A stretch of 36,115 nucleotides of DNA. It comes from an alpha proteobacterium SCGC AAA288-G21. Its GTDB lineage: Bacteria; Pseudomonadota; Alphaproteobacteria; Pelagibacterales; Pelagibacteraceae. A program made the translations under genes and the position numbers. Every line of letters starts with the position of its first letter. The stretch's first letter is position 1. This document shows, one piece after another, positions 6,239 through 36,115 of the stretch. Where the stretch lies: NCBI GenBank assembly GCA_000513075.1, contig AZYC01000008.1, forward strand, positions 1 through 36,115. The letters run 5' to 3'. The notes beneath the pieces are model-generated. The model saw nothing but the letters and a program-made list of their open reading frames with translations. It did not search any database and was not told the origin of the DNA.

Positions 6239-6243
6239 TTTGT

Positions 6244-6320
6244 GGGGGTGTAGCTCAGTTGGTTAGAGCGATCGCCTGTCACGCGATAGGTCGAGGGTTC
6301 GAGTCCCTTCACTCCCGCCA
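6244..6320 (+). tRNA. tRNA-Asp (anticodon GUC), CCA encoded
   Basis: Acceptor GGGGGTG/CACTCCC (one G.U), D-arm TAGCTCAGTTGGTTAGAGC, anticodon stem-loop ATCGC-CTGTCAC-GCGAT, T-arm GGTTCGAGTCC, discriminator G + CCA. Confidence 0.95.
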
Positions 6321-6406
6321 CATCTTTCTAGTATGATTAAAAAATCAGCAATACTGTGACTTTTAAATTCTTCATCAATTGAAAAAAGTATTATAATAAA
6401 CAAATC

Positions 6407-6775: not shown

Positions 6776-6779
6776 CGTA

Positions 6780-7304: not shown

Positions 7305-7308
7305 ACTT

Positions 7309-7911: not shown

Positions 7912-7918
7912 AATTTAA

Positions 7919-9699: not shown

Positions 9700-10972
9700 A
9701 GATAGCGATAGAATTTTCAAAAATTTATATAATGATTTTGGTTGGGAAATTGAATCGGCAATCACAATAGGTGATTGGAAAGATACTAAAGAGATTTGTT
9801 TCAAAGGGAAAGAGTGGATTATAAATGAAATCAAAACCTCAGAACTTAGAGGTAGAGGTGGAGCGGGTTTCCCTACTGGACTTAAATTATCTTTCGTACC
9901 CAAAGAAAAAGGAGTGAGACCTCATTACTTGGTAATAAATGCTGATGAATCTGAACCAGGAACATGTAAAGATAGAGATATTTTAAGATTTGAACCTCAA
10001 AAATTAATAGAAGGATGTTTAATAACTTCTTATGCCATTGGAGCACATGTCTGTTACATTTATATTAGAGGTGAATTTTTTAGAGAAGGTGAAAGACTTC
10101 AACAAGCTATTGATGAAGCATACCAAAAAAATTTTATTGGCAAAAATTCATGCAATACTGGGTGGGATCTGGATATTTATCTACATTTTGGCGCAGGCGC
10201 TTATATTTGTGGTGAAGAAACAGCATTATTAGAAAGTTTAGAAGGAAAAAAAGGTCTACCTAGATTAAAACCTCCCTTTCCAGCTTTAGTTGGTCTCTAT
10301 GGTTGTCCAACAATTGTAAATAATGTTGAAACAATAGCTGTAATCCCAACTATTTTGAGAAGAGGTGCTAAATGGTTTGCCTCCTTGGGTAGATCAAAAA
10401 ATACTGGCACAAAGATATTTTGTATTACTGGAAATGTAAACAGTCCTTGTAATGTTGAAGAAGAGATGGGCGTTCCATTAAAAGAGCTTATAGAAAAACA
10501 TGCTGGCGGTGTTATTGGTGGTTGGAATAATCTTCAAGCAGTTATTCCCGGTGGATCATCTATGCCTTTATTACCAAAAAATGTTTGTGATAGCGTAAGA
10601 ATGGATTTTGACTATTTACTTGATCAGAAAAGCGGATTAGGGACAGCAGCCATAGTGGTTATGAATAAGGACCAAGACATAATTAAATGTATGGCAAGAA
10701 TTGCAAAATTTTATAAACATGAAAGCTGTGGGCAGTGCACACCTTGCAGAGAAGGTGCGGGATGGATGTGGCGCATGCTTGAGAGGATGGCAAGAGGAGA
10801 GGCTACCTTAAAAGAAGTCGATTTGTTATTTGATGTAACAAAACAAATTGAAGGGCATACTATTTGTGCTTTTGGAGAAGGTTCAGCTTGGCCTGTTCAA
10901 GGATTGCTTCGCCACTTTCGAAAAGAGATTGAAACAAGAAATAGCTCCTTCAAAAATATCTATTGTTACTAA
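9692..10972 (+). CDS. nuoF: NADH-quinone oxidoreductase subunit F; authentic to about 10948, last residues (FKNIYCY) come from antisense bamA across a misjoin
   Basis: [51 protein letters not shown]; native C-terminus [28 protein letters not shown] is found on the minus strand at the window end. Confidence 0.95.
10846..10948. repeat. 103-bp perfect inverted repeat, copy 1 (inside nuoF)
   Basis: Exact reverse complement of 36013-36115 on direct comparison; homology stops at the nuoF/bamA junction. Confidence 0.97.
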
Positions 10973-11980
10973 TATCTTGTCATTTTTAACAGTTTCAATT
11001 AATTTAGAATTTATAAACTGAAGATCTTTTTTAGTAGTTAAGTCATTAATTTCATCAAGAATTTTTATAATTTTTTTTGGCGAATAATACTTATTTTTAA
11101 GTTTAGGAAGATCTTTTGCAATTTCAACAAAAGAACTTTTATCTAAACCTTCTGATATTTTTAAAGAAACATCCTCAAACCTAAATCTTTTCCCTGAGTT
11201 AATATTATAAGTCAATAGAAACCCTTCGCCCTCTTCATATAATATGTTCGTTGCCAATACTTTGGCCTGATAATAACCTTTGCTTTTATAAAAATTTTCT
11301 AGAAGGCGAGTATCTAATTTAATTCTTTCCTGATTCAAATATTTTTTTGTGGATATAATTTTCCATGCTTTACTCTCTTCCGTTGTGATAATACCTCTTA
11401 ATTTGCTATCCTTGAATTTTTTATCACCTATAAAGGCAATCTTTCCTATCTTGGCACGCTTTCCTCTATTAATTTCATAAATTAAATCTATTGAATTATT
11501 TACATTTTCTTTCGCGTAAGCCTCTACTTCTATAAAATAAAATCCTTGATTTCTGAAAGCTGTTTTAATTTTTTGAATATCTCTAATCAACTTATTTTCT
11601 ACATACGAAGTTTTTTCTTTTAATTCGATAACTTGTTTTATTGCCTCTTTATGTTTTTTTGCTCTAATTCCATTGAAAACTAAACTTTGGATTATTGGAT
11701 TTTCCTTGACTGAAATCTCTAGGAGACCATTAGTTAAATTAATTTCTAGATAAGAAAAAAAGTCGGTATCATATAGTTGCCTTGACAGTTCATTTATTTT
11801 TTGAGCATTGTAATCTTCATTTATCATTATATCTCCAAACAGAACAATAGTTTCTGGGGATACTCTGACATTGCCTACAACTTTAACTTCTTTAACAATT
11901 TCTGCGTAAGATATTGTTATTACAAAAATAAAAAAAAATAATGATTGTAATAAGGCTTTTTTCATTGAACGAAAGATCAT
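10883..11980 (-). CDS. bamA: outer membrane assembly factor BamA, N-terminal POTRA part only (authentic portion about 10949-11980; C-terminal tail is antisense nuoF)
   Basis: Signal peptide then [83 protein letters not shown]; ends ...[28 protein letters not shown]. Confidence 0.92.
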
Positions 11981-13140
11981 ACACTTATACCATTGATTTT
12001 CAACCTAACCAATTCTCTAACTTTAAGTATTTTACTGAGTGAAGTGGGTTTTTTTGTGAAATATTTTTTACACTCTTTTAAATTAATAATTTTTGTTAAG
12101 TTTTCCACAATCTGTCTCAGAGAAATTTTATTCAGCAAAAAAAGTTTAACAAATTCCTCGTTAGCAATTGTTATCACAGTATCGTAAAGAGTATTTTTTT
12201 TAGATATTTTTTTCAAAAGTTTTACCGAAGGAAACTTCAATTTGTCAACTTCAAAAAAGTTTAAGTTATTTAACGTTTTTGAATTAATTTTTTTTGAAGT
12301 TATATATTTTATCTTTTTATCATAAATAGAATTAAAAATTGGTATTTTCATATCTGTGTCGTGCAGTAACATTTTTATTAGTCCATTCTTAAATTTTATG
12401 ATTGTGTGTGCATATGACTGCGGATGAATAAATATTTTGTATTTTTCTAAATCAAAATTAAACATTTTGCTAGCTTCCATTATTTCAAAAACCTTATTCA
12501 TCAAATTTGCTGAATCTACTGAAATTTTTTTACCCATTTTCCATTTTGGATGCTTGACTGTTTTTTCAGGGGTTATTGTTTTTTGAATTCTAATAGGTAA
12601 ATTTAGAAGTGGGCCGCCAGATGCAGTGAGTATGATTTCTTCTATATCGTTATTTGAATATTCCCTTGTTAGATTCCATATTGAATAATGCTCAGAGTCG
12701 ATTGGAATAAATTTAGTATTATATTTTTTTAATTTTTTATTAATTAAATACCATCCACAGATAATAGATTCTTTATTTGCACTAGCTATAGTTTTTGTAA
12801 ATTTTATTACATCTAAGGTAGGTTTAAGGCCGTCTAATCCCGATATACCACATATAGTATAATCAACTTTTTTTTTTAAGATTTTATTTAATTTGGTCTT
12901 TCTTGAAAAAATATTTATTTTTCTACCTTTTAATTTTACTTTTAAAAATTCATAATATTTGTCATTGTAAATTAGAATATTTTTTACTTTAAATTCTTTA
13001 GCTTGTTGAATTAATTTTTTATAATTTTTATTAGCTGTTAATAGAACCACCTTAAGATTTTTTTTATCTTTTCTGACAATATCTAATATGTTTTCACCTA
13101 TAGAGCCAGTTGAACCAAGTATTACAATATTAATTTTCAT
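11977..13140 (-). CDS. dxr: 1-deoxy-D-xylulose 5-phosphate reductoisomerase
   Basis: NIVILGSTGSIGENILDIV ... SANKESIICGW ... PIDSEHYSIWN ... MGKKISVDSANLMNKVFEIMEA. Confidence 0.97.
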   Translation of the reverse strand: MKINIVILGSTGSIGENILDIVRKDKKNLKVVLLTANKNYKKLIQQAKEFKVKNILIYNDKYYEFLKVKLKGRKINIFSRKTKLNKILKKKVDYTICGISGLDGLKPTLDVIKFTKTIASANKESIICGWYLINKKLKKYNTKFIPIDSEHYSIWNLTREYSNNDIEEIILTASGGPLLNLPIRIQKTITPEKTVKHPKWKMGKKISVDSANLMNKVFEIMEASKMFNFDLEKYKIFIHPQSYAHTIIKFKNGLIKMLLHDTDMKIPIFNSIYDKKIKYITSKKINSKTLNNLNFFEVDKLKFPSVKLLKKISKKNTLYDTVITIANEEFVKLFLLNKISLRQIVENLTKIINLKECKKYFTKKPTSLSKILKVRELVRLKINGISV

Positions 13141-13141
13141 A

Positions 13142-13822
13142 CTAAAATATCTGCGTAATTTTTAAAATATATACAGTTGGTATAGCAAAAATTAGTCCAT
13201 CGATTCTATCTAACAATCCTCCATGACCAGGTAAAATATTTCCTGTGTTCTTAACTTTGTTCAATCTTTTAAAATAAGAAATCAATAAATCTCCTAATTG
13301 GCAGGCCAAAGAAACAATTAAACAAAGCGCTATACTTATTGATAAAACTTCATAAGACACTCCAGTATAATTTTGGAAATTAAATAATAATACTGGTAAT
13401 ATGGAAAAGATAAAAGAACCCAAGCATCCAGAAATCGTTTTATTTGGACTAATTTTAGTTAATTTTTTTCCTCCTATAACTTTGCCAAAAACGTAACCAC
13501 CTATATCAGAAAAAATACATATACATAAAATAATAATAAAAAAAGCTATGCTTTCAGAATTGTTGCCTCTTAAAGCTATGGACGTACCTAAAAAAATAAA
13601 TAGATAAGCTAATCCAACAAATTGAACAAAAAAATATTTCCAATTGTTATGCTGCTTTTTCTTAAAATATTTATAATTAATATCTCTCCATTCGTTAAAA
13701 CATATAAATAAAGTTACAATAAGTATGAGTACAAAAACAAATTTATGTATCAAAATGCAAAAAATTGCAATTATAAACAAAATGATTGATGTTATTATTC
13801 TTTTTCCTAATTCTACGGCCAT
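13142..13822 (-). CDS. cdsA: phosphatidate cytidylyltransferase
   Basis: C-terminal signature SPNKTISGCLGS...QLGDLLISYFKRLNKVKNTGNILPGHGGLLDRIDGLIFAIP. Confidence 0.95.
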   Translation of the reverse strand: MAVELGKRIITSIILFIIAIFCILIHKFVFVLILIVTLFICFNEWRDINYKYFKKKQHNNWKYFFVQFVGLAYLFIFLGTSIALRGNNSESIAFFIIILCICIFSDIGGYVFGKVIGGKKLTKISPNKTISGCLGSFIFSILPVLLFNFQNYTGVSYEVLSISIALCLIVSLACQLGDLLISYFKRLNKVKNTGNILPGHGGLLDRIDGLIFAIPTVYILKITQIF

Positions 13823-14499
13823 TAAATATTTCCAAAATTTCTTTTAATTTTATTAAATTTTTTTAATATTTTTTGAAAATCATTATTATTAAAATCAGGC
13901 CACATTTTTTTTACAAAAAAAATTTCTGCATAAGCTATTTGCCACAACAAAAAATTACTGAGTCTATTTTGGGCACCGGTTCTTATTAAAATGTCAGGGT
14001 CAGGAAAGCCAGAAGTATAAAGATTTTTTTCAAAATTTTTGGTTGTAATTTTTTGTTTTTTTTTATCAACAATCTTCATACTATTAATTATTTCTTGTTT
14101 TGACCCGTAATTTAAAGCTAGTTGAACTGAAATTTTTTTATTATTTCTGGTTTTGTTCTCTGCAAGTTTTATTATTTTCCTTAAATTGCTTGCTAACTTG
14201 GACTTATTTCCAATGATTTTTACTTTAATTCCATTTTTAATAACTTTAAGTAAATTTTTTTTGAAATAGTTTTCTAATAATTTAAATAAGAAATTAACTT
14301 CTTTTTTTGGCCTTTTCCAATTTTCACTTGAAAACGTAAATAATGTTAAATAAGAAATTTTTTTTTTAATTGAATAATCAACTATTTTTTCTATTGCCTT
14401 GAGTCCACATTGATGACCATAATTTCTTGATTTTCCTTTTTGTAATGCCCATCTACCATTACCATCCATAATAATGGCAACATGATTAGCTACACTCAT
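13822..14499 (-). CDS. uppS: isoprenyl transferase (undecaprenyl diphosphate synthase family)
   Basis: HVAIIMDGNGRWALQKGKSRNYGHQCGLKAIEKIV ... PDPDILIRTGAQNRLSNFLLWQIAYAEIFF. Confidence 0.97.
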   Translation of the reverse strand: MSVANHVAIIMDGNGRWALQKGKSRNYGHQCGLKAIEKIVDYSIKKKISYLTLFTFSSENWKRPKKEVNFLFKLLENYFKKNLLKVIKNGIKVKIIGNKSKLASNLRKIIKLAENKTRNNKKISVQLALNYGSKQEIINSMKIVDKKKQKITTKNFEKNLYTSGFPDPDILIRTGAQNRLSNFLLWQIAYAEIFFVKKMWPDFNNNDFQKILKKFNKIKRNFGNI

Positions 14500-15047
14500 A
14501 CTGTCATTATCTCTTTTTCTTTTTGGGATTCTTTTTCATCAATTTTTTTTATTTCTTGATCTGTAATATTCTGAATTTCTTTTTCTAATTTATTGTTTTC
14601 ATCTTCGGTAATCTTCTTTTCCTTAAGCATTGCTCTTAGTACATCATTAGCTTCTCTTCTTATATTTCTAACTGATACTTTGCTTTTCTCTGTCATATTT
14701 TTAACTATTTTTTTTAATTCATTTCTTCTCTCTTCGTTTAAATTTGGAATCGGAATTCTAATCAACCGACCATCCGTTAAAGGATTTAAACCCATTTCTG
14801 ATTTTCTTATTGAAGAGTCGATAAGAATCACATTATTTTGATCCCATACTTGAATATTTAATGTTCGAGGATCTGGTACAGTAATTGTACCCAATTGATT
14901 TATTGGTATTTTTTGTCCATAAACATCAACTTTGATAACATCCAACATGCTAGCATTCGCTCTACCTGTTCTCAAAGATGATAAATCCTTCGCAAAAGCT
15001 TCGAAGGTTTTATTCATTTTTTGTTTATAAATGTTTTTATCAAACAT
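14496..15047 (-). CDS. frr: ribosome recycling factor
   Basis: MNKTFEAFAKDLSSLRTGRANASMLDVIKVDVYGQKIPINQLGTITVPDPRTLNIQVWDQN. Confidence 0.97.
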   Translation of the reverse strand: MFDKNIYKQKMNKTFEAFAKDLSSLRTGRANASMLDVIKVDVYGQKIPINQLGTITVPDPRTLNIQVWDQNNVILIDSSIRKSEMGLNPLTDGRLIRIPIPNLNEERRNELKKIVKNMTEKSKVSVRNIRREANDVLRAMLKEKKITEDENNKLEKEIQNITDQEIKKIDEKESQKEKEIMTV

Positions 15048-15081
15048 AAGATAAATATGTATTTTAAAGGGTAAATCTTAT

Positions 15082-15946
15082 TTATTCACCAACTTTATAT
15101 CTAACAAAATCTTTAATGGTTACGCTATTTTCTTTACCTAATTCAGCTATAACGTCTTTTACTTTTTTTTTCGGATCCATAATCCAGATTTGATTAATTA
15201 AAGTATTTTCCTGTTTAAATTTTTCTAACTTTCCTCTTGAAATTTTTTCTATAATATTATCACTTTTGCCTGAATTTTTAAGTTCCTCACTAATTATCTC
15301 ATTTTCTTTTTCCAATATTTTCTTGTCAAGTTGACTAACTTCAATTGTCAGTGGGTTTGATGCCCCTATGTGCATTGCCAATTTGTGTCCAAAATCTTTA
15401 ATTTGTTGATTGAATTTTGTAGATTTTATACAGACAACCACGCCGAGTTTTCCAATATTTTCTTTTAATGTCGCATGTACATATGAAAAATTTATGTATT
15501 TACTGTTATCAAAAAAATTACATCTTCTAATTGTAATTTTTTCTCCGATTTTAGAAATAAGCTTAATTATATTATCGTTAACACTATTTCCATCTTTCAT
15601 TATCTTTTTTTTTAAATTATTAAAATCTCCCTTTGCTTCAAAGCACAATTTAGAAAGATTTTCTGAAAAATTTAAAAACTCTAAATTTTTTGCAGCAAAG
15701 TCTGTTTCACAATTAATTTCAACTATAGAGGATTTATTATTTTCTTCGTGAATACAAATTAGACCGTCATTTGCAACACGTTCCATTTTTTTTACTGGCT
15801 TTAGAAATTCCTTTTATACGTAAATATTTTATGGATTTTTCTATATCACCGCCACACTCATTAATTGCAGTATTGCAATCTCCAAAACCTACACCTGTAA
15901 GCTCTCTAAGTTTTTTAATCTTATCTAAATGACTGGAAGAGGACAT
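15082..15946 (-). CDS. tsf: elongation factor Ts, split into two reading frames by a +1 at an 8-nt A tract (minus strand), 15786-15793
   Basis: Frame a (15946 to 15767): [59 protein letters not shown]; frame b (15786 to 15082): [34 protein letters not shown]...; deleting one A fuses them as ...[13 protein letters not shown]... Confidence 0.93.
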
Positions 15947-15954
15947 TGAAGAAA

Positions 15955-16788
15955 TTATTTTTTTATTGGGTTGTTTTCTTTTGATATCGTGCTAATAACT
16001 TTTTCTTTTATTCTATCAATCAATCGTACTTTATCTTTTTTTTCTTCAACTTTAATTTCTTTGACTGGAGTTTTGATTTCATCATTTTTATTGGAAATTT
16101 TAATTTCTTTTTGTGTGTTTTGAATAGTTTCTTTTAATAAATCACAGTATAAATTTATTGCTCTTCGTGCATCATCATTTCCAGGTATTGGATAATCGAT
16201 GTCTGTAGGATCGGAATTTGTATCAAGTATTGCAATTATAGGTACATTTAGCTTGGCAGCCTCCTTAATAGCTAACTTTTCATAATTTGTATCAATAATA
16301 AATATTAAATCTGGAACACCTTTCATTTCTAATATTCCCCCAAGTGATCTCTCGAGTTTGTCTCTTTTACGTCCCATCTTGATAATTTCTTTTTTTGTAA
16401 AACCTGTATTCTCATCTCCAAGTGCTTCGTTAATTTGTTTTAGCTTTTTTATTGAATTTGAGATTGTTTTCCAATTAGTTAACATTCCCCCAAGCCATCT
16501 AAAATTTACATAATGTTGCGATGTATCTTTAGCCAAATTAGCAATTGACTCTGCAGCTTGCTTTTTAGTCGAAACAAATAATATTTTACCACCATTCGCA
16601 ATAACGCTCGAAACTTTTGAGAGAGCTTCATTAATTAACTCGATAGTTTGGACTAAATCAATTATGTGAATTGAGTTTCTTTTGCCAAAAATATAATTTT
16701 TCATTTTTGGATTCCATCTAAAAGTCTTGTGACCTAGATGTACGCCTGCTTCTAATAATTGTTGAATTGTTAAATTAGGTATATTCAA
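15955..16788 (-). CDS. rpsB: 30S ribosomal protein S2
   Basis: [52 protein letters not shown] ... [16 protein letters not shown] ... [17 protein letters not shown]. Confidence 0.98.
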
Positions 16789-16794
16789 TATATT

Positions 16795-16880
16795 TTTCCC
16801 GGTTATTCCACCACAGTTTTACCATTTAAGGACCGGCGGTCTAAACGACCAGCAACTGTGTGCGTTTTTTTAGGAGTTTT
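16795..16880 (-). promoter_or_regulatory. structured 5' leader of rpsB (candidate ribosomal-protein autoregulatory element)
   Basis: GC-elevated islet directly upstream of rpsB; outer stem CACAGTT/AACTGTG (16812-16818 with 16854-16860), inner GGTC/GACC helices. Confidence 0.6.
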
Positions 16881-16910
16881 ATAATTTAATCAAATAAATT
16901 ACAACTTTTA

Positions 16911-19900
16911 TTATATGTTTATTCTGTTCAAATAAGGCTCGTTTTTTAACGATTTTAATATTTCTGGGTTTATTTTTCTTTTTTCTGAAAGTTCAAAAAT
17001 TAGATTTTTTGAATTATTTTTAATAACAATTTTAACATTAGTATCACCTCTTTCAGAAATTAAATCTTTAAGTTTTTTTAGATTGTCCACTTCTTCTATT
17101 TCAAATGTAATTTTTGGTATAGATTGTTTTGAAATTTCACCTAAACTTACTAACTTTCTTACACTAATTCTTTTAAACCGATTAGCTTGGTTACTAATAT
17201 CTTTTACAACTGTAATTAATAATGACTTTCCTTCATTAAGAATGTCTCTGTTTCGATTCAAAATTTCTGAGAAAACAAATAATTCAAATACACCTCCCAA
17301 ATCACTAAATTTAATAATCGCAAAAGGATTACCTTTTTGTGTTTTTTTTTCTTGAATTTTCATTATTGTGGCAGCAAGAATAGTTTCATTACTCGTTGAA
17401 CTAATAAATGAATTAAAGTTTTGTATTTTGTATATATCAAAAATCTCTTTGTATTCATTAATTGGATGATCTGAAATAAAAAACCCAATTGACTCAAATT
17501 CTTTTGCTAATCTTTCCTCAAATGGCCAATCATTAACACTGGTTTGCACCAAGCTTTTTTTAGTTTGATTGCTATCATCAAATAAATTTACTTGATTATT
17601 AATTTTATTTTCAAATACAGATTTTGAAGCTAATATAATATTTGGAATTTTATCATGAAATGCTTTTCTATTATTTTCTAAAGAGTCAAATGCCCCTGCT
17701 TTTACTAATCCTTCAAGTTGCAGTTTATTAATATTCTTTGGATTGACTCTATTAATAAAATTATCTAATGATTTAAACTGACCGTTAATTTCTCTTTCTT
17801 TAACAATTTGATTAATTGCTTCAAATCCAACACTTTTAATTGCCCCTAATGCGTAATAAAATTTTTTGTCTGTGGATTTAAATTCTGCAAAGCAACTATT
17901 TATGCATGGACGTTGAATTTCAATATTAAGCCTTTTTAATTCCTCATAGAATTCACTTAATTTAGCTTGATTACCTAATTCTGTTGACATTGATGCGGCA
18001 AAAAATTCCTTGGGATGATGGGTTTTTAAAAAGGCTGTTTGATAAGCAATGACTGCGTAAGCAGCGGCATGACTTTTATTAAAACCATATTCGGCGAAAG
18101 GTTCTATTTTTTGGAAAATATAATCTGCTACATCCTTTTGAATTCCGTTCTTTAAAGCTCCTTCAACAAATCTTTGTTTTTGTTTTTCTAATTCTGCTCG
18201 TTTTTTTTTCCCCATTGCTCTTCTTAAAATATCAGCTTCTCCTGCGGTAAAACCTGATAAAATTTGGGCTATTTGCATTACCTGTTCTTGATAAATAATA
18301 ACTCCATAAGTGGGTTCCAGAATTTCTTTTAATTTTGGATGAAGATAATCAGGTTCTTTTTTTTTGTGCTTGCAATCATTATAGATAGATATATTGCTCA
18401 TAGGACCCGGTCTATATAAAGCTACCAGAGCAATAATATCCTCCAATCTATTAGGTTTCATTTGCATTAAAGCTTCTCTCATTCCTGAACTTTCAAGCTG
18501 AAACAAGCCAACTGTATAACCTGACGATAGTAATTCGAAAACTTTTTTATCCTCAAAATTAATTGTGTTTATATCTAGGTCTATATTTTTCGCTTTTAAA
18601 AGAGTCCGAGTTTTACTTATAATCGTTAAGGTATTTAATCCAAGTAAGTCAAATTTTATTAATCCAGCATTTTCTGCTGAATACATGTCAAATTGCGTTG
18701 CTGGCAATAATAAATCAGAGGAAAAATCTTTATAAAGAGGAACTGTCTCTGATAAATTTTTCTCTGCAATAACAACGCCGGCAGCATGAGTAGCGATGTT
18801 TCTATTTAGTCCCTCAAGTTTTAAAGATAAATCCATTAATTTTCTTACTCGTGCATCCTTAGATATCATATCTTGAATTCTTGGTTCACGATTTATACAG
18901 TCTTGCAAGCTTAGTGGCCTTGAAGGATCAAAAGGAATCATTTTACTAATAGAGTCAACAAATCCATAAGGAAAACCCAGAACTCTTCCAATATCCCTAA
19001 TAGCCATTCTTGCTTTTAATTTTCCAAAAGTAATTATATGAGCAACGCCATTTCCATATTTTTTTTTAAGATAAGAAAATACCAAATCTCTTTTTTCTTC
19101 ACAAAAATCTATATCAAAATCTGGCATTGAAATTCTATCTGGATTTAAAAATCTTTCAAAAATTAAATTAAATTTTATTGGGTCAATATTTGTAATGCGT
19201 AAACACCACGCAATTAATGATCCTGCGCCTGACCCCCTACCAGGACCAACTGGTATATCATTATTTTTTGCCCATTTAATATAATCTGAAACAATCAAAA
19301 AATAACCTGAGTAACGCATTTCTTTTATAATGTTAAATTCATGTAGAAGTCGCTTGTTATAAATATTTAAATTTTTTTTATTTTCTTGATCAGAATTCTG
19401 TTTAAAGATGTATTTATTAAATTTTTCTTTCATACCTTTTGTTGCTAAATTTATTAACTCTTGATCTACATCTATATCTTTGCTGGTCCTTATATTTGGG
19501 AGGATAGGTAAAGAAGGTTTGGGTTTATAACTACATTTATAAGGAAAATTAAAATTATTTTCCAGTGCTTCTGGTAAATCAGAAAAAATTTCAATCATTT
19601 GTTCAGAGCTTTTCAAATAATGTTGATCAGAATATTTTCTTCTTTTTTTTTCATTTACATAGGTTTTTTCTCCTATACAGATCAATGCATCATGGGCTTC
19701 GTGCATATCCTTATCTAAATAAAAAACTTCATGAGTAGCGATTAAGGGAATTGCTAAATCATTAGATTTGTTTAATAGAAATTCTTCAAATAATTTTTCC
19801 CCAACATCGTTATGCCTTTGAATTTCTAAATAAAATTTGTCCTTAAATACATCTTTTATTAATTTGAGGACTTCATCAATCTCTGTTAATAAATTTTTCG

Positions 19901-20330: not shown

Positions 20331-21000
20331 TTGAGCGCCTAATATTACCATCAATTATTCTTAACTTGTAGTCGGCTTTATCGGCTAGCTCTCTATTATG
20401 AGTTGCAAAAATTATTGATCGATTTTGAGATTTAAATTTTAAGAACAAATTAAATATTTCTTTTGATGTAGATTGATCTAAACTTCCAGTAGGTTCGTCA
20501 GCCAAAATAAGCTGTGGTTCATTTATAACTGCTCTTGCAATTGCTACTCGCTGTTGTTCTCCCACCGAAAGATCGCTTGGAAAATGATCAAGCCTTTTAG
20601 ATAAACCAACGTTTTTTAAAATTTTTCTCGCTACATTATTTGCATACTCTTTGCTTTTTCCAGAAGAAATCATTGCTATAGCAACATTTTCTAAAGACGT
20701 AAAATCACTCAACAAATTGTTTTGTTGATATACAATAGAAATTTTTTTACCTCTCAATTCATCTTTTTCAACATCGTTCATTTGGGAAGTTTTTTTTCTT
20801 TCAAAATAAATTTCTCCATTTGATGGTTGATCCAGTAACGCTAACATATGAAGAAATGTAGATTTACCTGATCCTGAAGGTCCTAGTAAAGCTACAAGAT
20901 CCCCTTTTTTTATTTCAATATTAATCTTTTTTAAAATATTGAGGTTTTTTTTTAGAAAAAAACTCTTAGAAAGATTGACTGTTTTAATAATATTACTCAT
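20314..21000 (-). CDS. lolD: lipoprotein-releasing ABC transporter ATP-binding protein LolD
   Basis: [27 protein letters not shown] (Walker A), [31 protein letters not shown]; adjacent to LolC/E permease. Confidence 0.93.
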
Positions 21001-22229
21001 ATTTTAATGCTTTAATTGGATCTAACCTGGATGCCGAGTAAGCAGGAAATATTGATACCAACACAGTTATTCCTAATGAACACAAAGTAATAATTAATAT
21101 TGAATTTAAATCTATTTCTGAAGGCATTTTGCTTAAAAAATATATTTCCTCTGGAAACAGACTGATATTAAATAAATCGGAAAGTAACGATCTAATTTTT
21201 TCAATATTATGAGAAAACAGTACTCCTAATAATACACCGGTCAAAGTTGCAAAAAAAACCAATGGAGAAACCTACTAAAAAAAATATTTTAGCGATAGAT
21301 TTTGAACTAACGCCAAGTGTTCTTAAAATTGCAATTTCTTTGGTTTTATTTTTTACCAAAATTGTTAGTCCAGATATTATATTAAATGCAGCTACAACAA
21401 CGATTAGTGACAATATAATAAACATCACATTTCTTTCTACTTTTAAAGCACCAAAAAAAGATTTATTTAAATCTGCCCACGAATAAACAAAATAATCAGA
21501 AAATAAATTTTGAATTTTTTCCTTAGCTTCTTCAACATGTTCCGGTTTTTTTAAATAAATCTCTAAAAAAAGATCATCGTCAGATGCTTCGAAAAATGGA
21601 ATAGCATCTTCAACTGGCATAAAAATAACATTCTGATCAAATTCAGCTAATCCACTATTAAAAATTGAAGAAATAGTAAAACTTTCTTGCTTTGGAAGAG
21701 TACCAATAATAGTTTGGATACCTGACGATGACATTAAAGTAATTTTATCATCAATTTTTAAGTTTAAGGATATTGCCAAATCTTTTCCAATGGAAATTGT
21801 ATTCTTATTAAAATTGTCCAAGGAACCATCAATAATTCCCTCTTGTAGTAAATTTATTTTTTTTAAGTCATTTTTAAGATAGCCGCGGACTAAAATTCCT
21901 TTTGTATCATCTTTATTGATTAAAATTCCCTCTCCATTGAAAGATAACATCGTTTTCTCAATAATATTTGATAGCGAATTAAGTTCGTTAAGATTTTGAC
22001 TTTCAATTTTTTTTTCGTAGGGCTTAATTATGATATGAGCATTAAATCCTAAAATTTTATCTATTAGTTCCGTTCTAAAACCATTCATTACGGACATTAC
22101 AATTATTAGTACCGAAACACCTAAGGCAATTCCTAGAAACGAAAAAATAGATATTATTTTTAAAAAACCTTCTTTCCTTTTTGGTTTTAAATATCTAAAA
22201 GCTACTATTTTTTCGATTTCGGAAATCAA
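20993..22229 (-). CDS. lolC: lipoprotein-releasing ABC transporter permease (LolC/E family), split in two frames by a +1 at an 8-nt T tract (minus strand), 21251-21258
   Basis: Frame a (22229-21207): MISEIEKIVAFRYLKPKRKEGFLKIISIFSFLGIALGVSVLIIVMSVMNGFR...VGFSIGFFCNFDRC...; frame b (to 20993): VFFATLTGVLLGVLFSHNIEK...[18 protein letters not shown]; one fewer T gives ...SIGFFATLTGVLLGVLFS... Confidence 0.93.
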
Positions 22230-23554: not shown

Positions 23555-23598
23555 GTAAATTAAAATAGCTTTTAAAGTTCAAACAACTTAACATATTG

Positions 23599-25266: not shown

Positions 25267-25281
25267 AATTTAATCCAAAAT

Positions 25282-26043: not shown

Positions 26044-26049
26044 ATTAAT

Positions 26050-26628
26050 TTAATAATAATTTTTTCGTTTTAATTTAAAATTTAAAAACTTATATAAATC
26101 TAAATTAGAAAAAAATTGTTCATACTTTACTATTACTTGATTCACAATTTGTAACAATTTAGGTTTTTTTTTTGTTTCTTTGTATATATTGGTAGATGGG
26201 TAATTTTTGATTTTCGGATTTGAAAAAAGATTAATACCAATACCAACTATTAAATATTTTTTTGACCCCTTAATAATTACTTCTTGCAAGATACCACATA
26301 TTTTTTTCTTATTAATATATATATCATTAGGTGATTTAAAAAATGTATTTTTTCTTCCACAATACTTACTTAATATATCAATATTTAAAATTGGATTAAT
26401 CAAAGAAAATTCTTCTACACTTGGATAATTTTTTTTAATATGAAAGAAAATTGAACCAAAAAAATTTCCTTTTTCTGAAATCCATTTTCTTCCATAACGC
26501 CCTTTTCCTTTTTTTTGTGACAAGGCATATACAAATCCATTTTCATATTTTTTTTTTTTAATTAACTCTATTGCCTTTTCATTTGTGCTGTTTAGGGTAT
26601 CGTACTTAAAAATTTTAAATTTCATCAA
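26050..26628 (-). CDS. birA: biotin--[acetyl-CoA-carboxylase] ligase, catalytic domain only
   Basis: KYDTLNSTNEKAIEL...ALSQKKGKGRYGRKWISEKGNFFGSIFF...KSPNDIYINKKKICGILQEVIIKGSKKYLIVGIGINLF. Confidence 0.92.
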   Translation of the reverse strand: MMKFKIFKYDTLNSTNEKAIELIKKKKYENGFVYALSQKKGKGRYGRKWISEKGNFFGSIFFHIKKNYPSVEEFSLINPILNIDILSKYCGRKNTFFKSPNDIYINKKKICGILQEVIIKGSKKYLIVGIGINLFSNPKIKNYPSTNIYKETKKKPKLLQIVNQVIVKYEQFFSNLDLYKFLNFKLKRKNYY

Positions 26629-28040
26629 ATAAGATTTATATTTGAAACCATGTCAATAAGAAGGCTTGGATAAATAAAGTAAACCAATACAATTATTGTT
26701 GACAGAAATAATGAGATTTTAAGTCCTAAATTTTGATTACTTTCAAATATTTCCTCAGGAGCATCAAAATATATTGTCTTGATTATTCTTAAATAATAAA
26801 ATGCTGAAATTACAGTTGTAATTAATCCTATGATAGCAATCGTATACATTTTAACTTTTATCACTGCCATAAATATATAAAATTTAGCAAAAAAACCTGC
26901 AAGTGGTGGAATTCCAGCTAATGAAAATAATAATAAGAGCAGACAAATCGAAATTATAGGATGGTTTTTTGATAAACCTGATAGATCTTGAATATCTTCA
27001 TAAAATATATCATTTCTTTTCATCATAAAAATACATGAAAAAACACCAAGATTCATTAATAGATAAATTGAGAGATAAATTACTGTACTTTGGATTCCTT
27101 CATTACTTCCTGTAGCTAGACCTGCTAATGCATAGCCCATGTGGCCAATGGAACTGTAAGCCATTAATCTTTTAATATTTGTTTGTCCTATTGCAGCAAC
27201 TGCTCCCAAAATCATTGAAGCAAGGGAAATAAAAATTATTATCATTTGCCACTGATCAACAACGTTAATAAATGGAACGTATAAAAACCTTATAAAGACA
27301 GTTAATGCAGCTACTTTTGGTACTATTGCAAAGAAAGCGGTAACCGAGGTAGGTGAACCCTCGTAAACATCTGGGGCCCACATATGAAATGGTACAGCCG
27401 AAACTTTAAATGCAAGTCCTACTAAAATAAACACAATACCAAAAATTGATCCGGTATTTAATTTATTTATGTTTTGAGCTATTAGGTCAAAATTCGTTGA
27501 ACCTGAAAAACCATAAATAAGAGAACATCCATAAAGTAATAATCCAGAGGACAATGCACTCAAAACAAAATATTTTAAACCTGCTTCCGAAGATCTAAGG
27601 TTGTCCCTGTTAAATGATGCCAGCACATACAAGGATAAAGATTGTAACTCCAGGCCCATATAAAAAACAATAAGATCATATGAACTTATCATTATCATCA
27701 TGCCCAAAGTGGCAGATAAAATTAAAATTGGATATTCAATTTTGTTAATACCATTCAATTTTATATAATCAAAAGAAGATAACATGACAAAAATACAAGC
27801 TGCCAAGGTTAGGGCTTTCATAAATAAAGAAAGATAATCAATCGTGTAACTGTTATTAAATAGTTTAGCTGAAGTATCTACCGAATGATTGAATAATAAT
27901 ATAAATGTAGCCAACAAGATAATCGTTGATAATTTAAAAATAAGATTAAAACTATTTTTATAAAAAACTCCAATCATTAATAAAATCATAATAGAAGTAG
28001 TAAAAAATAATTCTGGAATGATAAGATTTAATTGTTCCAT
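26625..28040 (-). CDS. nuoN: NADH-quinone oxidoreductase subunit N
   Basis: KYFVLSALSSGLLLYGCSLIYGFSGSTNFD...VPFHMWAPDVYEGSPTSVTAFFAIVPKVAAL. Confidence 0.97.
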   Translation of the reverse strand: MEQLNLIIPELFFTTSIMILLMIGVFYKNSFNLIFKLSTIILLATFILLFNHSVDTSAKLFNNSYTIDYLSLFMKALTLAACIFVMLSSFDYIKLNGINKIEYPILILSATLGMMIMISSYDLIVFYMGLELQSLSLYVLASFNRDNLRSSEAGLKYFVLSALSSGLLLYGCSLIYGFSGSTNFDLIAQNINKLNTGSIFGIVFILVGLAFKVSAVPFHMWAPDVYEGSPTSVTAFFAIVPKVAALTVFIRFLYVPFINVVDQWQMIIIFISLASMILGAVAAIGQTNIKRLMAYSSIGHMGYALAGLATGSNEGIQSTVIYLSIYLLMNLGVFSCIFMMKRNDIFYEDIQDLSGLSKNHPIISICLLLLLFSLAGIPPLAGFFAKFYIFMAVIKVKMYTIAIIGLITTVISAFYYLRIIKTIYFDAPEEIFESNQNLGLKISLFLSTIIVLVYFIYPSLLIDMVSNINLI

Positions 28041-29542
28041 TATTTTGCAGCCTCTGTTAAATAAAAAGTTAAATTTATTTCATAATTTTTTATTAACTCA
28101 GAAACAGATATATCAATAGTTCTAAATAATGGGTCAGGATAAAAACCAAAAAATAAAATTAAAAAAGCTAAAGAAGATAAAATAAAGATCTCAGTTTTAT
28201 TTAAATCATAAATTTTTTTTAATTCACTATTATTAATTTTTCCAAAAACCACTCTTTTATAAAGCCAAAGCATGTAAGCTGCGGAAAAAATAACACCTAG
28301 GCTAGCTAACACTGCAACTAATATATTTTTTTGAAAAGCGCCCATCAAAATTAAAATTTCCCCAACAAAGCCACTTGTGCCAGGCAAGCCCAACGCTGCT
28401 AAAGTAAAAATCATAAATATAACCGCATATTTTGGGATAATATGTACTAAACCGCCATAGGATGAAATCATTCTTGAATGAACTCGATCATAAACAACAC
28501 CTACGCACAAAAACAGTGCTGCTGATATTAACCCGTGACTAATCATTTGAATAATACTTCCCTCTAAACCTTGTTTGGTAAATGTAAAAATACCAACTGT
28601 TACAAAACCCATATGAGCAACAGAAGAATAAGCAATTAATTTTTTCATATCTTCCTGCATTAGGGCGACAAGCGATGTATAAACGATAGCTATAATACTT
28701 AACAAAAAGATTAATGGAGTAAAAAAGTCTGAGGCTACAGGAAATAAACCAATTGAAAATCTAATAAATCCATAACCAGCCATCTTTAGTAATATTGCAG
28801 CCAATATTACTGAACCAGCTGTTGGTGCTTCAACGTGAGCATCAGGCAACCAGGTATGGACTGGCCACATAGGTAGTTTAACTGCAAAAGAACTAAAAAA
28901 GGCAAGCCACAATAAATATTGATATTCCTTCGGTATTTTAATCTCTAATAGTTGAGTCATATCGGTTGTACCTGTAATCCAATAAATAGATATCACTGCA
29001 ATTAGCAGCAATACTGATCCTAAAAGAGTAAATAAGAAGAATTTAAAAGCTGAATACACTCTTCTTGGGCCACCCCATATTCCTATTATTAAGAACATAG
29101 GTATTAAACCACCTTCAAAAAACAGATAAAATACCACTAAATCTAAAGAGCAAAATACCCCTATCATCAATGTTTCCATCACAAGTATAGCGATAAAAAA
29201 CTCTTTTATTCGTACCTTTACACTATTTATGACTGACAAAACGCAAATTGGAGTAATGAAGGCTGTTAATAAAATAAACAATATTGAAATTCCATCAATA
29301 CCAAGCCTAAAATTGAAATATCCACTCACCCATTGCTTATTTTCAATAAATTGAAAATCAGCCGTTGAAGTATCAAAAGAAAACCACAAAAAGATTGCAA
29401 GAAAAAAATTTGCAAAGGATGTAAATATAGCAACGTACTTTGTGTTGTCGATAGCTTTATCAGAAGAATCCTTTATTAAAAGAATAAACAAAGATCCTAC
29501 AAGAGGTAGAAAAGTTACTGCTGATAATATTGGAAAATTCAT
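28040..29542 (-). CDS. nuoM: NADH-quinone oxidoreductase subunit M
   Basis: FFEGGLIPMFLIIGIWGGPRRVYSAFKFFLFTLLGSVLLL...PMWPVHTWLPDAHVEAPTAGSVILAAILLKMAGYGFIRFS. Confidence 0.98.
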   Translation of the reverse strand: MNFPILSAVTFLPLVGSLFILLIKDSSDKAIDNTKYVAIFTSFANFFLAIFLWFSFDTSTADFQFIENKQWVSGYFNFRLGIDGISILFILLTAFITPICVLSVINSVKVRIKEFFIAILVMETLMIGVFCSLDLVVFYLFFEGGLIPMFLIIGIWGGPRRVYSAFKFFLFTLLGSVLLLIAVISIYWITGTTDMTQLLEIKIPKEYQYLLWLAFFSSFAVKLPMWPVHTWLPDAHVEAPTAGSVILAAILLKMAGYGFIRFSIGLFPVASDFFTPLIFLLSIIAIVYTSLVALMQEDMKKLIAYSSVAHMGFVTVGIFTFTKQGLEGSIIQMISHGLISAALFLCVGVVYDRVHSRMISSYGGLVHIIPKYAVIFMIFTLAALGLPGTSGFVGEILILMGAFQKNILVAVLASLGVIFSAAYMLWLYKRVVFGKINNSELKKIYDLNKTEIFILSSLAFLILFFGFYPDPLFRTIDISVSELIKNYEINLTFYLTEAAK

Positions 29543-31456
29543 TTAAATTAAAATCAAATAGGTTAATAAAATAGATAATCCTACAAGCATAACAAAAGCA
29601 TAATGATAAATATATCCATTCTGAAATTGAACAGCTTTATTAGAAAAAAATTTTACTAATTTTGCAAATCCATCAGGACCGAATTGATCAATAGTTTTAA
29701 TATCACCATTCTTCCAAAAAATTAAACCTAGTTTCTTTAGTGGTTTGACAAAAATAAAATCATAAAGTTCATCAAAATACCATTTGTTTAATAAAAATTC
29801 ATAAACCTGTTTGTGGGATCGAACAAATTTCGTAAGAATTTTTTTGTCCTTTAAAAATAAATAATAAGAAATTGGGATTGAAATCATAATTAATAATGGT
29901 GTTAGTAATATTAGCCAAATTGGCGGATGGTCATTAGTTATTGGATTTAAAAACAATATTGAATTTCTCCAAAACTCACTGCTGCTTCCATAGCCAATAA
30001 ATAAATCCTTAAATAAATAACCTGATCCGATAGCTCCAACAGCCAATAAAATTAATGGAGCTAGCATTATCATTGGACTTTCATGAATGTTTTCAATATT
30101 AATTTTTTCATTGGAGTATTTTCCATGAAATGTCTTAAATAATAATCTCCAGGAATAAATAGAAGTTAAAATTGCTGTGAGTATTCCAATGAAGACGGCA
30201 TAAAATCCAATAGTTGAATTTTTTAAATATGCAAATTCTATGATGGCATCTTTAGAATAATATCCTGATAAAAATGGAAAACCTGTTAAAGCTAAAGTTC
30301 CAATTAACATTAAGATCCATGTGTATGGAATTTTTTTCCAAACACCTCCCATTAATCTAATATCCTGTTCGTTTTTGAAAGAATGTATAACGGAACCAGA
30401 ACCTAAAAAGAGAAGAGCCTTAAAAAAAGCATGAGTGAATAAATGAAACATTGCAACATGATAAGCTCCAATTCCTGCAGCAAAAAACATGTATCCTAAT
30501 TGACTACAAGTAGAATAAGCTATGATTCTTTTGATATCGTTTTGAACAAGTGCAATTGTTGCCGTAATAAAAGCTGTGGTCATTCCCACTATACAGACCA
30601 AATTCAAAGCAAATTGAGAATATTCAAATATTGGCGAACATCTCACTACTAAGAATACTCCAGCCGTTACCATGGTAGCCGCATGTATTAAAGCTGAAAC
30701 TGGAGTTGGTCCTTCCATGGCATCGGGTAACCATGTATGCAAAAAAATTTGTGCTGACTTACCCATGCAGCCGAGAAACAAGAGTATGCAAGTTAATGTG
30801 ATGACGTTTATTTCAATTCCCAAAAAATTAATTTGTTTTCCTGCAATAAAAGGAATTTGAGCAAAAACCTCAGAATAGTTGACTGTTCTGAAATAGTAAA
30901 AAATTAAAAAAATACCTAAAGCAAAACCAAAGTCACCAACTCTATTTACAATAAATGCTTTGATTGCGGCAGCATTAGCTGAAGGTTTTTTGTACCAAAA
31001 TCCAATCAATAAATAGGAGCACAAACCTACTCCTTCCCAGCCAAAAAATAATTGAAGGAAATTATCAGATGTCACCAAAGTTATCATTGTAAATGTAAAC
31101 AACGATAAATAAGACATAAATCGAGTCTTACAATCATCATGAACCATATAACCAATAGAATAAATGTGAACTAATGACGAAACTATACCTACGACAACTA
31201 ACATAGTGGACGATAAAGCATCAATTTTAATTGACCAATTTACTTGTAGATCTCCTGATGTAAGCCAGGAAAAAATTGTAATATTATTTGCGTAACCTTG
31301 CACAATAACAAAATAAAAAACTACAAAAGATAAAATTGCAGATATTGATACTAAAAGGCTTGTAAAAATTTCAGAAAATCTATCACCAATTTTTTTGCCA
31401 AAAAAACCTGAAACTATTGCACCAATCAGAGGTAAAAATACAATTGCGTATTCCAT
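29543..31456 (-). CDS. nuoL: NADH-quinone oxidoreductase subunit L
   Basis: FFGWEGVGLCSYLLIGFWYKKPSANAAAIKAFIVNRVGDFGF...HTWLPDAMEGPTPVSALIHAATMVTAGVFLVVR. Confidence 0.98.
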   Translation of the reverse strand: MEYAIVFLPLIGAIVSGFFGKKIGDRFSEIFTSLLVSISAILSFVVFYFVIVQGYANNITIFSWLTSGDLQVNWSIKIDALSSTMLVVVGIVSSLVHIYSIGYMVHDDCKTRFMSYLSLFTFTMITLVTSDNFLQLFFGWEGVGLCSYLLIGFWYKKPSANAAAIKAFIVNRVGDFGFALGIFLIFYYFRTVNYSEVFAQIPFIAGKQINFLGIEINVITLTCILLFLGCMGKSAQIFLHTWLPDAMEGPTPVSALIHAATMVTAGVFLVVRCSPIFEYSQFALNLVCIVGMTTAFITATIALVQNDIKRIIAYSTCSQLGYMFFAAGIGAYHVAMFHLFTHAFFKALLFLGSGSVIHSFKNEQDIRLMGGVWKKIPYTWILMLIGTLALTGFPFLSGYYSKDAIIEFAYLKNSTIGFYAVFIGILTAILTSIYSWRLLFKTFHGKYSNEKINIENIHESPMIMLAPLILLAVGAIGSGYLFKDLFIGYGSSSEFWRNSILFLNPITNDHPPIWLILLTPLLIMISIPISYYLFLKDKKILTKFVRSHKQVYEFLLNKWYFDELYDFIFVKPLKKLGLIFWKNGDIKTIDQFGPDGFAKLVKFFSNKAVQFQNGYIYHYAFVMLVGLSILLTYLILI

Positions 31457-31768
31457 TTAACCCTTTAAAGAGTTAATGCCCTCAACTCTAATTGACCCTT
31501 TATTTCTGTAATAAACAACTATGATTGCGAGTCCTATGGCTGCTTCAGCTGCTGCAACAGTTAAGATAAACATCGTAAATATCTGACCAGTCAAATCTTG
31601 CGTAAAAATTGAAAAAGAAACTAAATTAATATTTACCGCTAAAAGTATTAGTTCAATTGACATTAAAATTATAATTACATTTTTTCTGTTTAAAAATATT
31701 CCAATAACGCCAATTATAAAAATTATTGCCGCAAGTATTAGATAATGCCCCAAAGCAATATTAATCAT
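31457..31768 (-). CDS. nuoK: NADH-quinone oxidoreductase subunit K
   Basis: [44 protein letters not shown]...[22 protein letters not shown]. Confidence 0.98.
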
Positions 31769-32393
31769 TCAAATTAACTCCTTTATTACTTTTGACATCA
31801 ACTAATGTGACCCCTTCTACTTTTTCTCTGCTAACTTGCCTGAAGTAACTTTGTCTTTTAACTCCCTCTCTTTTTCTATACGTCAAAACTATCGCTCCAA
31901 TCATTGCAACTAGAAGTATTAATCCAGCCAATTGAAATAAATGTATATAGTCCGTATAAATTACATTTCCTAAAGCATGGGTATTGGTGAAATTTTTATC
32001 AATTTGAATCGATGATGTTTCTATTAAGTTAGGTTTATATTTCCAGCCACCAATAACAATTATTAATTCAAGAAAAATAATTATACTAATTAAAAATCCA
32101 AATGGAATATGGGATGTAAAAATTTTTCCTTTAAACCACTCATCTTTTTGTTGAGCTACATTAAGCATCATTACTACAAACAAAAATAGTACTGCTACAG
32201 CACCAACGTAAACGATCAACATAATCATTCCCAAAAATTCTGCTCCAATCATTATGAAAAGACAAGAAATACTAATAAAATCTAAAATTAAAAAAAAAAC
32301 TGAATGAACTGTATTTTTAGAAGCTATGACCATTATGGCGGAAAAAACTGCTATTACCGAAAAAAAATAAAAAAATATAGCGTGTGCAAGCAT
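31761..32393 (-). CDS. nuoJ: NADH-quinone oxidoreductase subunit J
   Basis: [56 protein letters not shown]. Confidence 0.97.
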
Positions 32394-32879
32394 TTATCTA
32401 TATGGGGAGTCAGCTTTAATATTTTCTGCTAAAATTTGCTCCCATCTATCCCCATTTTCCAGTAGTTTTTCTTTATTGTAATAAAGTTCTTCTCGTGTTT
32501 CTGTTGCAAATTCAAAATTTGGACCTTGAACTATCGCATCAACTGGACAAGACTCTTCACAAAGTCCGCAGTAAATACATTTCAACATATCTATGTCGTA
32601 TCTGGTAGTTTTTCTACTTCCGTCAACCATAGGTTTAGATTCAATTGTTATAGCTTGGGCAGGACATACCGCTTCACAAAGTTTGCATGCAATACATCTT
32701 TCTTCTCCGTTTGGATACCGTCTTAAAGCATGTTCTCCTCTAAATCGTGGACTAATCTTTCCCTTTTCAAAGGGATAATTGATTGTTTTTTTTGGTTTAA
32801 AAATTTCCTTAATTGCAATATTTAAACCTTTAACAAACTCTAAAAGAAAAATAGTTTTTATAATTCTATTTAATTTCAT
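32394..32879 (-). CDS. nuoI: NADH-quinone oxidoreductase subunit I (start reassigned to MKLNRIIK; the ORF track starts at 32906)
   Basis: [36 protein letters not shown]...[24 protein letters not shown], two 4Fe-4S motifs. Confidence 0.97.
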
Positions 32880-32880
32880 T

Positions 32881-33882
32881 TTAAGTGCTATTTGGTAACA
32901 TTTCAAAATAATATAGATAACTCGCAGTTAAGATGACCCAAATCAACGAGACGGGTAAAAAAACCTTCCATCCTAATCTCATTAGTTGATCAAATCTATA
33001 TCTTGGAACAATCGCTTTAACTAAGGCAAATAAGAAAAATAATAATAAAATTTTTAAAATCATCCAAAGCGGAGATGGTAGCAGATTAAAAGGATATAAA
33101 TTGATGGGTGATAACCAGCCTCCTAAAAATAGAATTGAACCCATTGCACACATTAATAAAATATTTGCATATTCGCCTAACCAAAACATTGCGTACATCA
33201 TTCCAGAATATTCCGTCTGATACCCAGCTACTAACTCGGACTCTGCTTCAGGTAAATCAAAGGGAGGTCTATTGGTTTCTGCTAAAGCCGAAATAAAAAA
33301 AATAACAAACATGGGAAATAAAGGGATGATGAACCAAATATTTTTTTGAGCCAAAACTATATCTTTCAGGTTCAGCGAACCAACGCAAAGTAAGACATTA
33401 ACTATAATAATTCCAATAGACACCTCGTATGAAACCATTTGTGCGGCAGATCGTATGGAACCCAAAAAAGGGTACTTAGAATTTGAAGCCCATCCACCCA
33501 TTATAATTCCATAAACCCCTAACGATGAAATAGCAAAAAGATAAAGTATTCCAACATTAATGTTTGATAACACTAGTTTTTCACTAAAAGGAATTACTGC
33601 CCAAGCAATTAAGGCTAAAGTCATAGTTACTATTGGAGCTAAGATAAAAATTATTTTATTTGCGCTAGCCGGGATAATTATTTCCTTAAAAATATATTTT
33701 AATGCATCAGCTACCGTTTGAAATAAACCAAAAGGACCCACTACATTAGGTCCACGTCTTTTTTGAACAAAAGCCCATACTCTTCTATCGAACCAAACTA
33801 TCAATGCAACAGATACTAAAATCGGAATTAATAAAAATAAAATTTTATAAATTTCGTTAAATAAAATAAATAAATAATTCAT
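32881..33882 (-). CDS. nuoH: NADH-quinone oxidoreductase subunit H
   Basis: [36 protein letters not shown]...[38 protein letters not shown]. Confidence 0.98.
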
Positions 33883-33884
33883 AT

Positions 33885-35942
33885 TTATCTATCAGTTCCG
33901 GTTGATAAAAGTTTATTTTTTATAGATCTACATTCATTCATGGTCATTGACGATCTAGCGATATGATTGCTAAAATAATAATCTACAAAATCAATCTCTA
34001 TCTTTGAATTTACAAACGAAAACTCTTGAGTTTCATTTATATCAACTTTTGGTCTTACTATTTCCCCTATTTTTGAATGAATACTACTAGAATTAATCAA
34101 TCTTTCTTCCAATTCTTTTCGACTATTAATATTTAAAGTTTTTCCTAAAGCTTTTGATAGTTGAATTATTATATCCCAATCTTCTCTTGCATCACCAGGA
34201 GGATATGAAGCTTTGAATGCCTTTTGAATTCTTCCTTCTAAATTTATGAAATGTCCATCTTTTTCTGTATAGGTTGGACTTGGTAGGATAACGTCAGCTA
34301 TTTGTGCTCCTAAATCACCATGTGAACCTTGATAAATTATAAATTCATTTTTTTTATTAAATCTTAACTCATCAGAACCAAGTAAATATAATATTTTGAA
34401 TTCGTTTGTATCAAGTTTATTTAAAATTGGAAAATTATCTTTTTTATTTAATTTATACAGACCTAAATCAATTGCTCCAATTCGAGATGCATTTTGTGTT
34501 AAAATATTTAAAGCATTCCATTCATTGGTAATATGATTATTTTTTATTAAATAATTTTTTATACTTTCAAAAATATATTTGCCGGAATCATTTTTAAGCG
34601 CTGATTCTCCAATTATAACTATCGGTTTTTTTGATTGCTTAAACTTTTCAGAAATTTCATGATTTCCTTCAATAATATCTTTTAAAACTTGAGTATTTGA
34701 ACCAATAATTTTGTATGGATAGGTAAGATCTCCGGGATTTCCTATAGAAAATATTTTAATATCATTATTTACATAAGATTTTCTAATTCTTGCATTTAAT
34801 ATAGTAGCTTCTAACCTAGGATTAGTTCCAACCAGCAACATTAGATCACATTCTTCAATTCCACTTATTGCTGAATTAAAAATATAATTCATTCTATTTT
34901 TGGGATTTAAATAAGTCTTTTTAGTTCTGCACTCTAGATTAGATGAATTCAAAATCTTGTTAAAAAACTCTTTAAAGATAAACATGCTTTCCATATCCAC
35001 CAAATCGCCAACTATACCTGCGATTTCTTCTGGTTTAGTATTATTTAATTTTTTAACTATTTTTTTTAAAGCTTTGCTCCAAGAAGTTTGTACCAATTTT
35101 CCTTTTTCTCTTATGTAAGGTGTATCCAATCTTTGTTTTAATAAGCCATCACAAGCATATCTAGTTTTGTCTGAAATCCATTCGTCATTAATATCTTCAT
35201 TTATTTTTGGTAAAACTCTTTTTACTTCCCAGCCGTAAGTATCTATTCTGATGTTTGATCCTACTGCGTCCATAACATCTATACTTTCAGTTTTTTTAAG
35301 ATCCCAAGGTCTTGCTTCGAAAGCATATGGTTTAGACGTAAGAGCTCCAACTGGGCACAAATCTATAACATTTGCGGATAGTTCAGATTCCATTGATTTT
35401 TCAAGATAAGTTGTAATTTCCATATCCTCACCACGCCCTATAGCTCCTAATTCAGGAATACCGGCCACTTCAGTCGCAAATCTGATACAGCGAGTACAAT
35501 GAATACACCTAGTCATTTGAGTCTTTATCAATGGACCCATGTATTTTTCTTTCACCTGTCTTTTATTTTCGGTAAATCTTGAATGATCAAATCCATAATA
35601 CAAAGATTGATCCTGTAAATCACATTCTCCTCCTTGATCACAGACCGGACAATCTAAAGGATGGTTGGCTAATAAAAATTCCATTATACCTTTTCTAGCT
35701 TTCTCAACAAAATGAGTGTTTGTTTTAATAACCATTCCATCAGTTGCTGGCATAGCACAAGATGCAATAGGTTTAGGAGATTTTTCAATTTCGACCAAAC
35801 ACATTCTACAATTACCAGCTATAGAAAGTTTTTCATGGTAACAAAATCTTGGTATTTCAGCTCCAGCCATTTCACAAACTTGAAGTACTGTTAATCCTTC
35901 CTCAAACTCAATCTTTTTTTCGTTCACTGTAATTTTAGGCAT
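33885..35942 (-). CDS. nuoG: NADH-quinone oxidoreductase subunit G
   Basis: [51 protein letters not shown]...[18 protein letters not shown]...[17 protein letters not shown]. Confidence 0.97.
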
Positions 35943-36115
35943 TTTCTTTTTCTAATAAATGTTGATCTATCAAATATGGTATTTTATTACCTATTGTTCT
36001 CTTAAGTGGATCGGAGCTATTTCTTGTTTCAATCTCTTTTCGAAAGTGGCGAAGCAATCCTTGAACAGGCCAAGCTGAACCTTCTCCAAAAGCACAAATA
36101 GTATGCCCTTCAATT
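35935..36115 (-). CDS. nuoF: 3' end of nuoF (partial, runs off window edge)
   Basis: Reverse complement translates [59 protein letters not shown], with the TAA overlapping the nuoG start (ATGCCTAAA). Confidence 0.95.
36013..36115. repeat. 103-bp perfect inverted repeat, copy 2 (nuoF segment at window end)
   Basis: Exact reverse complement of 10846-10948. Confidence 0.97.

Follow-up and report, generated by a model that had tools for sequence, protein, structure and literature searches.

An apparent 25-kb inversion in a Pelagibacteraceae draft genome is almost certainly an MDA fold-back chimera carried into the assembly

Introduction

Inverted joins are the main type of chimera produced by multiple displacement amplification (MDA), and represented 85% of 475 chimeras in the study of Lasken and Stockwell (2007, PMC1855051). 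In most cases the 3' end that gives rise to these inverted chimeras is complementary to its new template over 2-21 nt (PMC1855051). The majority of them span less than 10 kb; only 69 of 406 were longer than 10 kb, and in this long class a complementarity of at least 2 nt was found in only 34.8% (PMC1855051).

The genome studied here belongs to a SAR11 (Pelagibacteraceae) cell, and its closest relative in our comparison is AG-464-P07 (Pelagibacteraceae, QCSA01000006.1; hereafter G003), with a NuoG that is 95% identical. The name AG-464-P07 refers to plate AG-464, which belongs to a marine single-cell data set amplified by MDA or WGA-X (PMC6122165). The paper that describes the data set reports assembly with SPAdes (--sc --careful), and the k values are not given there (PMC6122165). 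A literature search for a paper giving k = 95 (or 25,55,95) for this data set found none.

In the present work we analyzed a stretch of 36115 bp (the window), which is the whole contig C8 of the draft genome and in which the nuo operon appears to be split at nuoF by a reversed block of 25 kb. A preliminary description of this DNA had attributed the arrangement to an MDA-type inverted chimera or to a misjoin of the assembly graph.

Materials and methods

The draft genome comprises 909,786 bp in 139 contigs and is 66.5% complete. The terminal-repeat survey covered 67 ends of 37 contigs; it did not extend to C38-C123 (masked as N), to C124-C139 or to the 3' portions of C11-C17. The comparison included two congeners, one of them approximately 91-94% identical in DNA; G001 belongs to the same genus.

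Results

The window presents two arms of an inverted repeat that agree in 103 of 103 bases, the second of which terminates exactly at the contig end (Table 1). From the base composition, the longest inverted match expected by chance in 36 kb was estimated at about 17 nt, and the next-longest inverted pairs among those listed are imperfect (72-87% over 31-42 nt). At 10948/10949 the gene strand flips, and the GC skew also reverses its sign, from +0.224 (10001-11000) to -0.187 (11001-12000). Within the reversed block the genes follow each other, all on the minus strand, in the order bamA, dxr, cdsA, uppS, frr, tsf, rpsB, dnaE, lolD, lolC, proS, rnj, coaX, birA and nuoN-nuoG, ending with the tail of nuoF.

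Table 1. Features of contig C8 related to the apparent inversion (coordinates of the window).
Feature	Position	Strand	Evidence
nuoF codons 1-419, genuine sequence as far as the false junction	9692..10948	+	NCBIfam PRK13596, E 3.7e-232; 93% identity to G003 nuoF 1-419
Arm 1 of the exact inverted repeat (103 nt), within nuoF	10846..10948	+	Exact reverse complement of 36013-36115
False junction between nuoF and antisense bamA, with about 2 nt (GG) of possible microhomology	10948..10949	.	GC-skew flip; both genes cut; neither join in relatives
bamA, first 344 codons	10949..11980	-	TIGR03303 positions 2-318 of 741; single match in draft genome
25,064-bp block in reversed orientation	10949..36012	-	One-piece antiparallel alignment with G003:C6 42956-17771, 91.1% over 25,207 columns
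True 3' end of nuoF (25 codons plus the stop), which overlaps the start of nuoG	35935..36012	-	Completes NuoF, as in G003
Arm 2 of the inverted repeat, reaching the contig end exactly	36013..36115	-	Repeat match; contig of 36115 bp

Both genes at the junction are interrupted. As assembled, NuoF consists of 419 native residues followed by seven foreign ones and a stop. When 9692-10948 is joined to the reverse complement of 35935-36012, a single NuoF of 444 residues is obtained, with a natural C-terminus, as in G003 (where the protein ends in DQHLLENENA), and a stop codon that overlaps the start of nuoG; the true nuoF-nuoG join is thus also present within the contig. BamA, read from the reverse complement of 10949-11980, has 344 residues, compared with 751 aa in G003. 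The remaining part of bamA is absent from the draft genome, as judged by a profile search with TIGR03303, and this absence is expected if coverage of the true continuation dropped out and the chimera was left as the sole path. On all these points (the exact repeat, the strand flip, the NuoF that becomes continuous when the block is turned back and the truncated BamA) our analysis agrees with the preliminary description.

The breakpoint falls directly after GAA, where bamA of G003 continues with GGTCAAAAA and the window reads GGAGCTATT. The sequence common to nuoF and bamA at this point is no longer than GG (2 nt); this was assessed with bamA of G003, since the continuation in C8 is missing. 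The junction fits the class of inverted MDA chimeras longer than 10 kb with little complementarity. A search of the whole draft genome gave no second occurrence of the bamA/nuoF junction.

The comparison with G003 showed two pieces of alignment to one contig: the window 6105-10948 runs parallel to positions 13029-17873, in one piece, and the window 10947-36115 runs antiparallel to the segment indicated in Table 1. The two pieces meet inside nuoF; by this alignment, the joined segments are inverted relative to the genome. From breakpoint to breakpoint, the distance between nuoF and bamA is 25,081 bp in G003 and 25,064 bp in C8. Furthermore, nuoF, nuoG and bamA lie on a single strand, with bamA 23-25 kb beyond nuoF, in G001, G018 and the one-contig genomes G007, G009, G012, G020 and G024, and the longer loci of four relatives keep the ordinary order from nuoA to rnj. 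Plasmid records searched for nuoF gave distant matches only. Judging from the relatives, the real order is nuoA-N, birA, coaX, rnj, proS, lolC, lolD, dnaE, rpsB, tsf, frr, uppS, cdsA, dxr, bamA.

Fold-backs are found in other contigs of the same draft genome. Same-contig inverted terminal repeats of at least 93 nt were present at 14 of the 67 surveyed ends, in 12 of 37 contigs, showing that this architecture recurs across the draft genome. In nine of the 14 cases the arms measure exactly 95 nt (both ends of C4, C7, both ends of C10, C11, C14, C17 and C23), and the other five measure 93, 94, 103 (C8), 227 and 997 nt; three further ends carry inverted repeats of 35-46 nt. At these 14 ends the matching reverse complement is found 1.3-25 kb away in the same contig. 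The other fold-backs of this genome span 1.3-33 kb, and in C8 the joined segments come from the same locus, 25,064 bp apart. As a control, 13 of 2000 random internal 30-mers were repeated, and a terminal inverted repeat of at least 20 nt was present in none of 71 loci of relatives, many of whose ends are cuts and not contig ends.

The ordinary head-to-tail overlaps C3/C18 and C34/C26 have precisely this length (95 nt) as well, suggesting that the assembler used k = 95. A constant length of 95 nt in fold-backs and in normal joins would correspond to contig ends that share a vertex of a de Bruijn graph with k = 95. JGI has used k values of 25, 55 and 95; we did not use this as evidence.

C33 is another folded contig: its parts match G001 in opposite orientations and meet at the fold point, and the locus is un-folded in that relative. 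Flipping lengthens the reading frame across the junction from 95 to 403 aa in C33, from 73 to 257 in C11, from 121 to 350 in C21 and from 182 to 291 in C23. The frame was longer after the flip in only nine of 17 folded ends; at the remaining ends the assembly path probably followed the true direction and turned back just where it finished. Such a proportion is therefore expected, and we did not count it as a test by itself. C23 and G003 align on opposite strands with a spacing that does not fit a simple flip. Besides C8, fold-back ends were observed in C1, C4, C7, C9, C10, C11, C14, C15, C17, C23 and C33, and near those ends the gene order is equally unreliable.

Other irregularities were observed in the window. 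In tsf (EF-Ts; 15740-15990, minus strand), a gene expected to be essential, the N-terminal part and the rest are in different frames, with the shift located in or close to a stretch of eight A; this is probably an indel error of a low-quality assembly. The lolC/lolE-type permease gene (20993-22229, minus strand) is divided into two ORFs, broken at a T homopolymer one base longer than in G003, which is probably a sequence error as well. At the beginning of the window (1-5914, plus strand) there is a pseudaminic-acid-type sugar cluster, upstream of tRNA-Val and tRNA-Asp, with genes for PseF, a PseG-methyltransferase fusion, an acetyltransferase and a PseC-like aminotransferase. This cluster did not align to the G003 contig, whose match begins at 6105, and is therefore a variable region. 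The PseC-like aminotransferase gene (4491-5914, plus strand) is without about 70 C-terminal residues, and directly after it comes a 172-aa radical-SAM/SPASM protein without its N-terminal half (300-400 aa in relatives); the region could contain a real deletion or a second chimera, of direct type, near 5390.

Discussion

The split of the nuo operon in C8 is an artefact of laboratory or assembly origin, and not a biological inversion. From the sequence evidence assembled here we are nearly certain that it is an MDA fold-back (inverted) chimera that was carried into the assembly. When the whole genome of the SAR11 cell was amplified, a 3' end displaced in bamA (nuoF would be equivalent) would have paired over about 2 nt with the opposite strand some 25 kb away and would then have been extended, giving a product in which bamA in sense runs into antisense nuoF. 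In the assembly graph, the branch vertex in nuoF would have two continuations, the true one to nuoG and the chimeric one to antisense bamA, both linked by the 25-kb loop, so that a single nuoF k-mer, together with its reverse complement, would serve as both exit and entry of the de Bruijn loop. The assembler may have written nuoA-F and then followed the loop in the wrong direction, with antisense bamA first and nuoG last, until it returned to the branch vertex from the true side, halted, and wrote the vertex again in reverse. A stop on returning to the branch vertex would account for a terminal inverted repeat about k long. Arm 1 would then be the branch vertex plus 8 nt, and these extra 8 nt (103 instead of 95) may represent a short additional graph edge beside the vertex. 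Amplification of the DNA by MDA, k = 95 and the strand that acted as primer are elements of this scheme that we infer. It should be mentioned that two observations speak against a chimera: a span of 25 kb exceeds that of typical MDA inversions, most of which are below 10 kb, and the arm has 103 nt and not 95.

Of the two origins considered in the preliminary description, the MDA-type inverted chimera is supported by the collinear relatives and by the recurrent 95-nt fold-backs. The other, a pure misjoin of the assembly graph in which nuoF and bamA were bridged through a shared repeat without any chimeric molecule, would agree with the fact that arm length tracks the assembler k in this draft genome. 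However, we regard it as very unlikely. In the relatives, nuoF and bamA have only about 2 nt in common at the breakpoint, far below a usable k-mer; a de Bruijn assembler cannot join loci through 2 nt, and consequently the join must have existed in molecules that were sequenced. In addition, the fold-backs consistently join inverted segments of a single contig, and this pattern is the signature of MDA.

Taken at face value, the sequence would indicate that the chromosome of this cell truly underwent an inversion, or an inverted duplication, with duplication of the 103-bp stretch of nuoF, and bacterial inversions with short inverted repeats do exist. Nevertheless, such an event would have destroyed both nuoF and bamA, and BamA is essential in the Gram-negative bacteria studied so far. 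No second breakpoint is present, the repeat runs precisely to the last base of the contig, the contig also contains the true nuoF-nuoG join, and the architecture recurs, with the same arm length, in unrelated contigs. We consider a real inversion extremely improbable, and equally slight is the chance that the cell truly carried the inverted 25-kb block, breaking nuoF and bamA, with arms that resemble an artefact by coincidence. Two exact inverted arms flanking a block could also suggest a segment whose inversion is programmed or phase-variable, with recombination at the 103-nt arms; this is the least probable of these explanations, close to negligible. Both arms are the same coding stretch of nuoF, one of them is the contig end and the second is present in no relative, so that the two inverted chromosomal recombination sites of a site-specific invertible element were not found; nor was an adjacent recombinase gene found among the annotated or named ORFs of the window, some of which were scanned against a library.

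For the MDA fold-back chimera, the practical consequence is that claims of gene order, operon splitting or inversion derived from C8, or from the other fold-back contigs of this draft, would be false. The preliminary description had warned against trusting gene order across 10948, and synteny and recurrent fold-backs, two independent lines of evidence for an artefact, bear this out. The collinear order it had proposed is the order conserved in relatives, as shown by the G003 alignment and by the collinear nuoF, nuoG and bamA of the others; in the comparison with closed genomes that it had suggested as a check, these three genes were collinear in all five one-contig genomes. If such contigs are left in databases, they introduce false synteny breakpoints and make genes appear truncated when they are not, as for NuoF and BamA here. 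Same-contig terminal inverted repeats of constant length across an assembly are a simple flag for them that does not need the reads.

In comparison with the inverted MDA chimeras described previously (PMC1855051), C8 presents the same inverted join within one locus, with intervening sequence between the joined segments, and a junction with short or no complementarity; such joins are also numerous in this draft genome, as they are in amplified genomes. It differs from most of them in its span of 25 kb, which places it in the rarer class above 10 kb, and in being known through an assembly, whereas those were identified in reads (PMC1855051). With respect to the terminal repeats left by de Bruijn assemblers, the arm of C8 is 8 nt longer than the constant overlap of this draft genome, and the draft as a whole shows the same constant-length end overlaps, here of 95 nt, in fold-backs and in ordinary joins.
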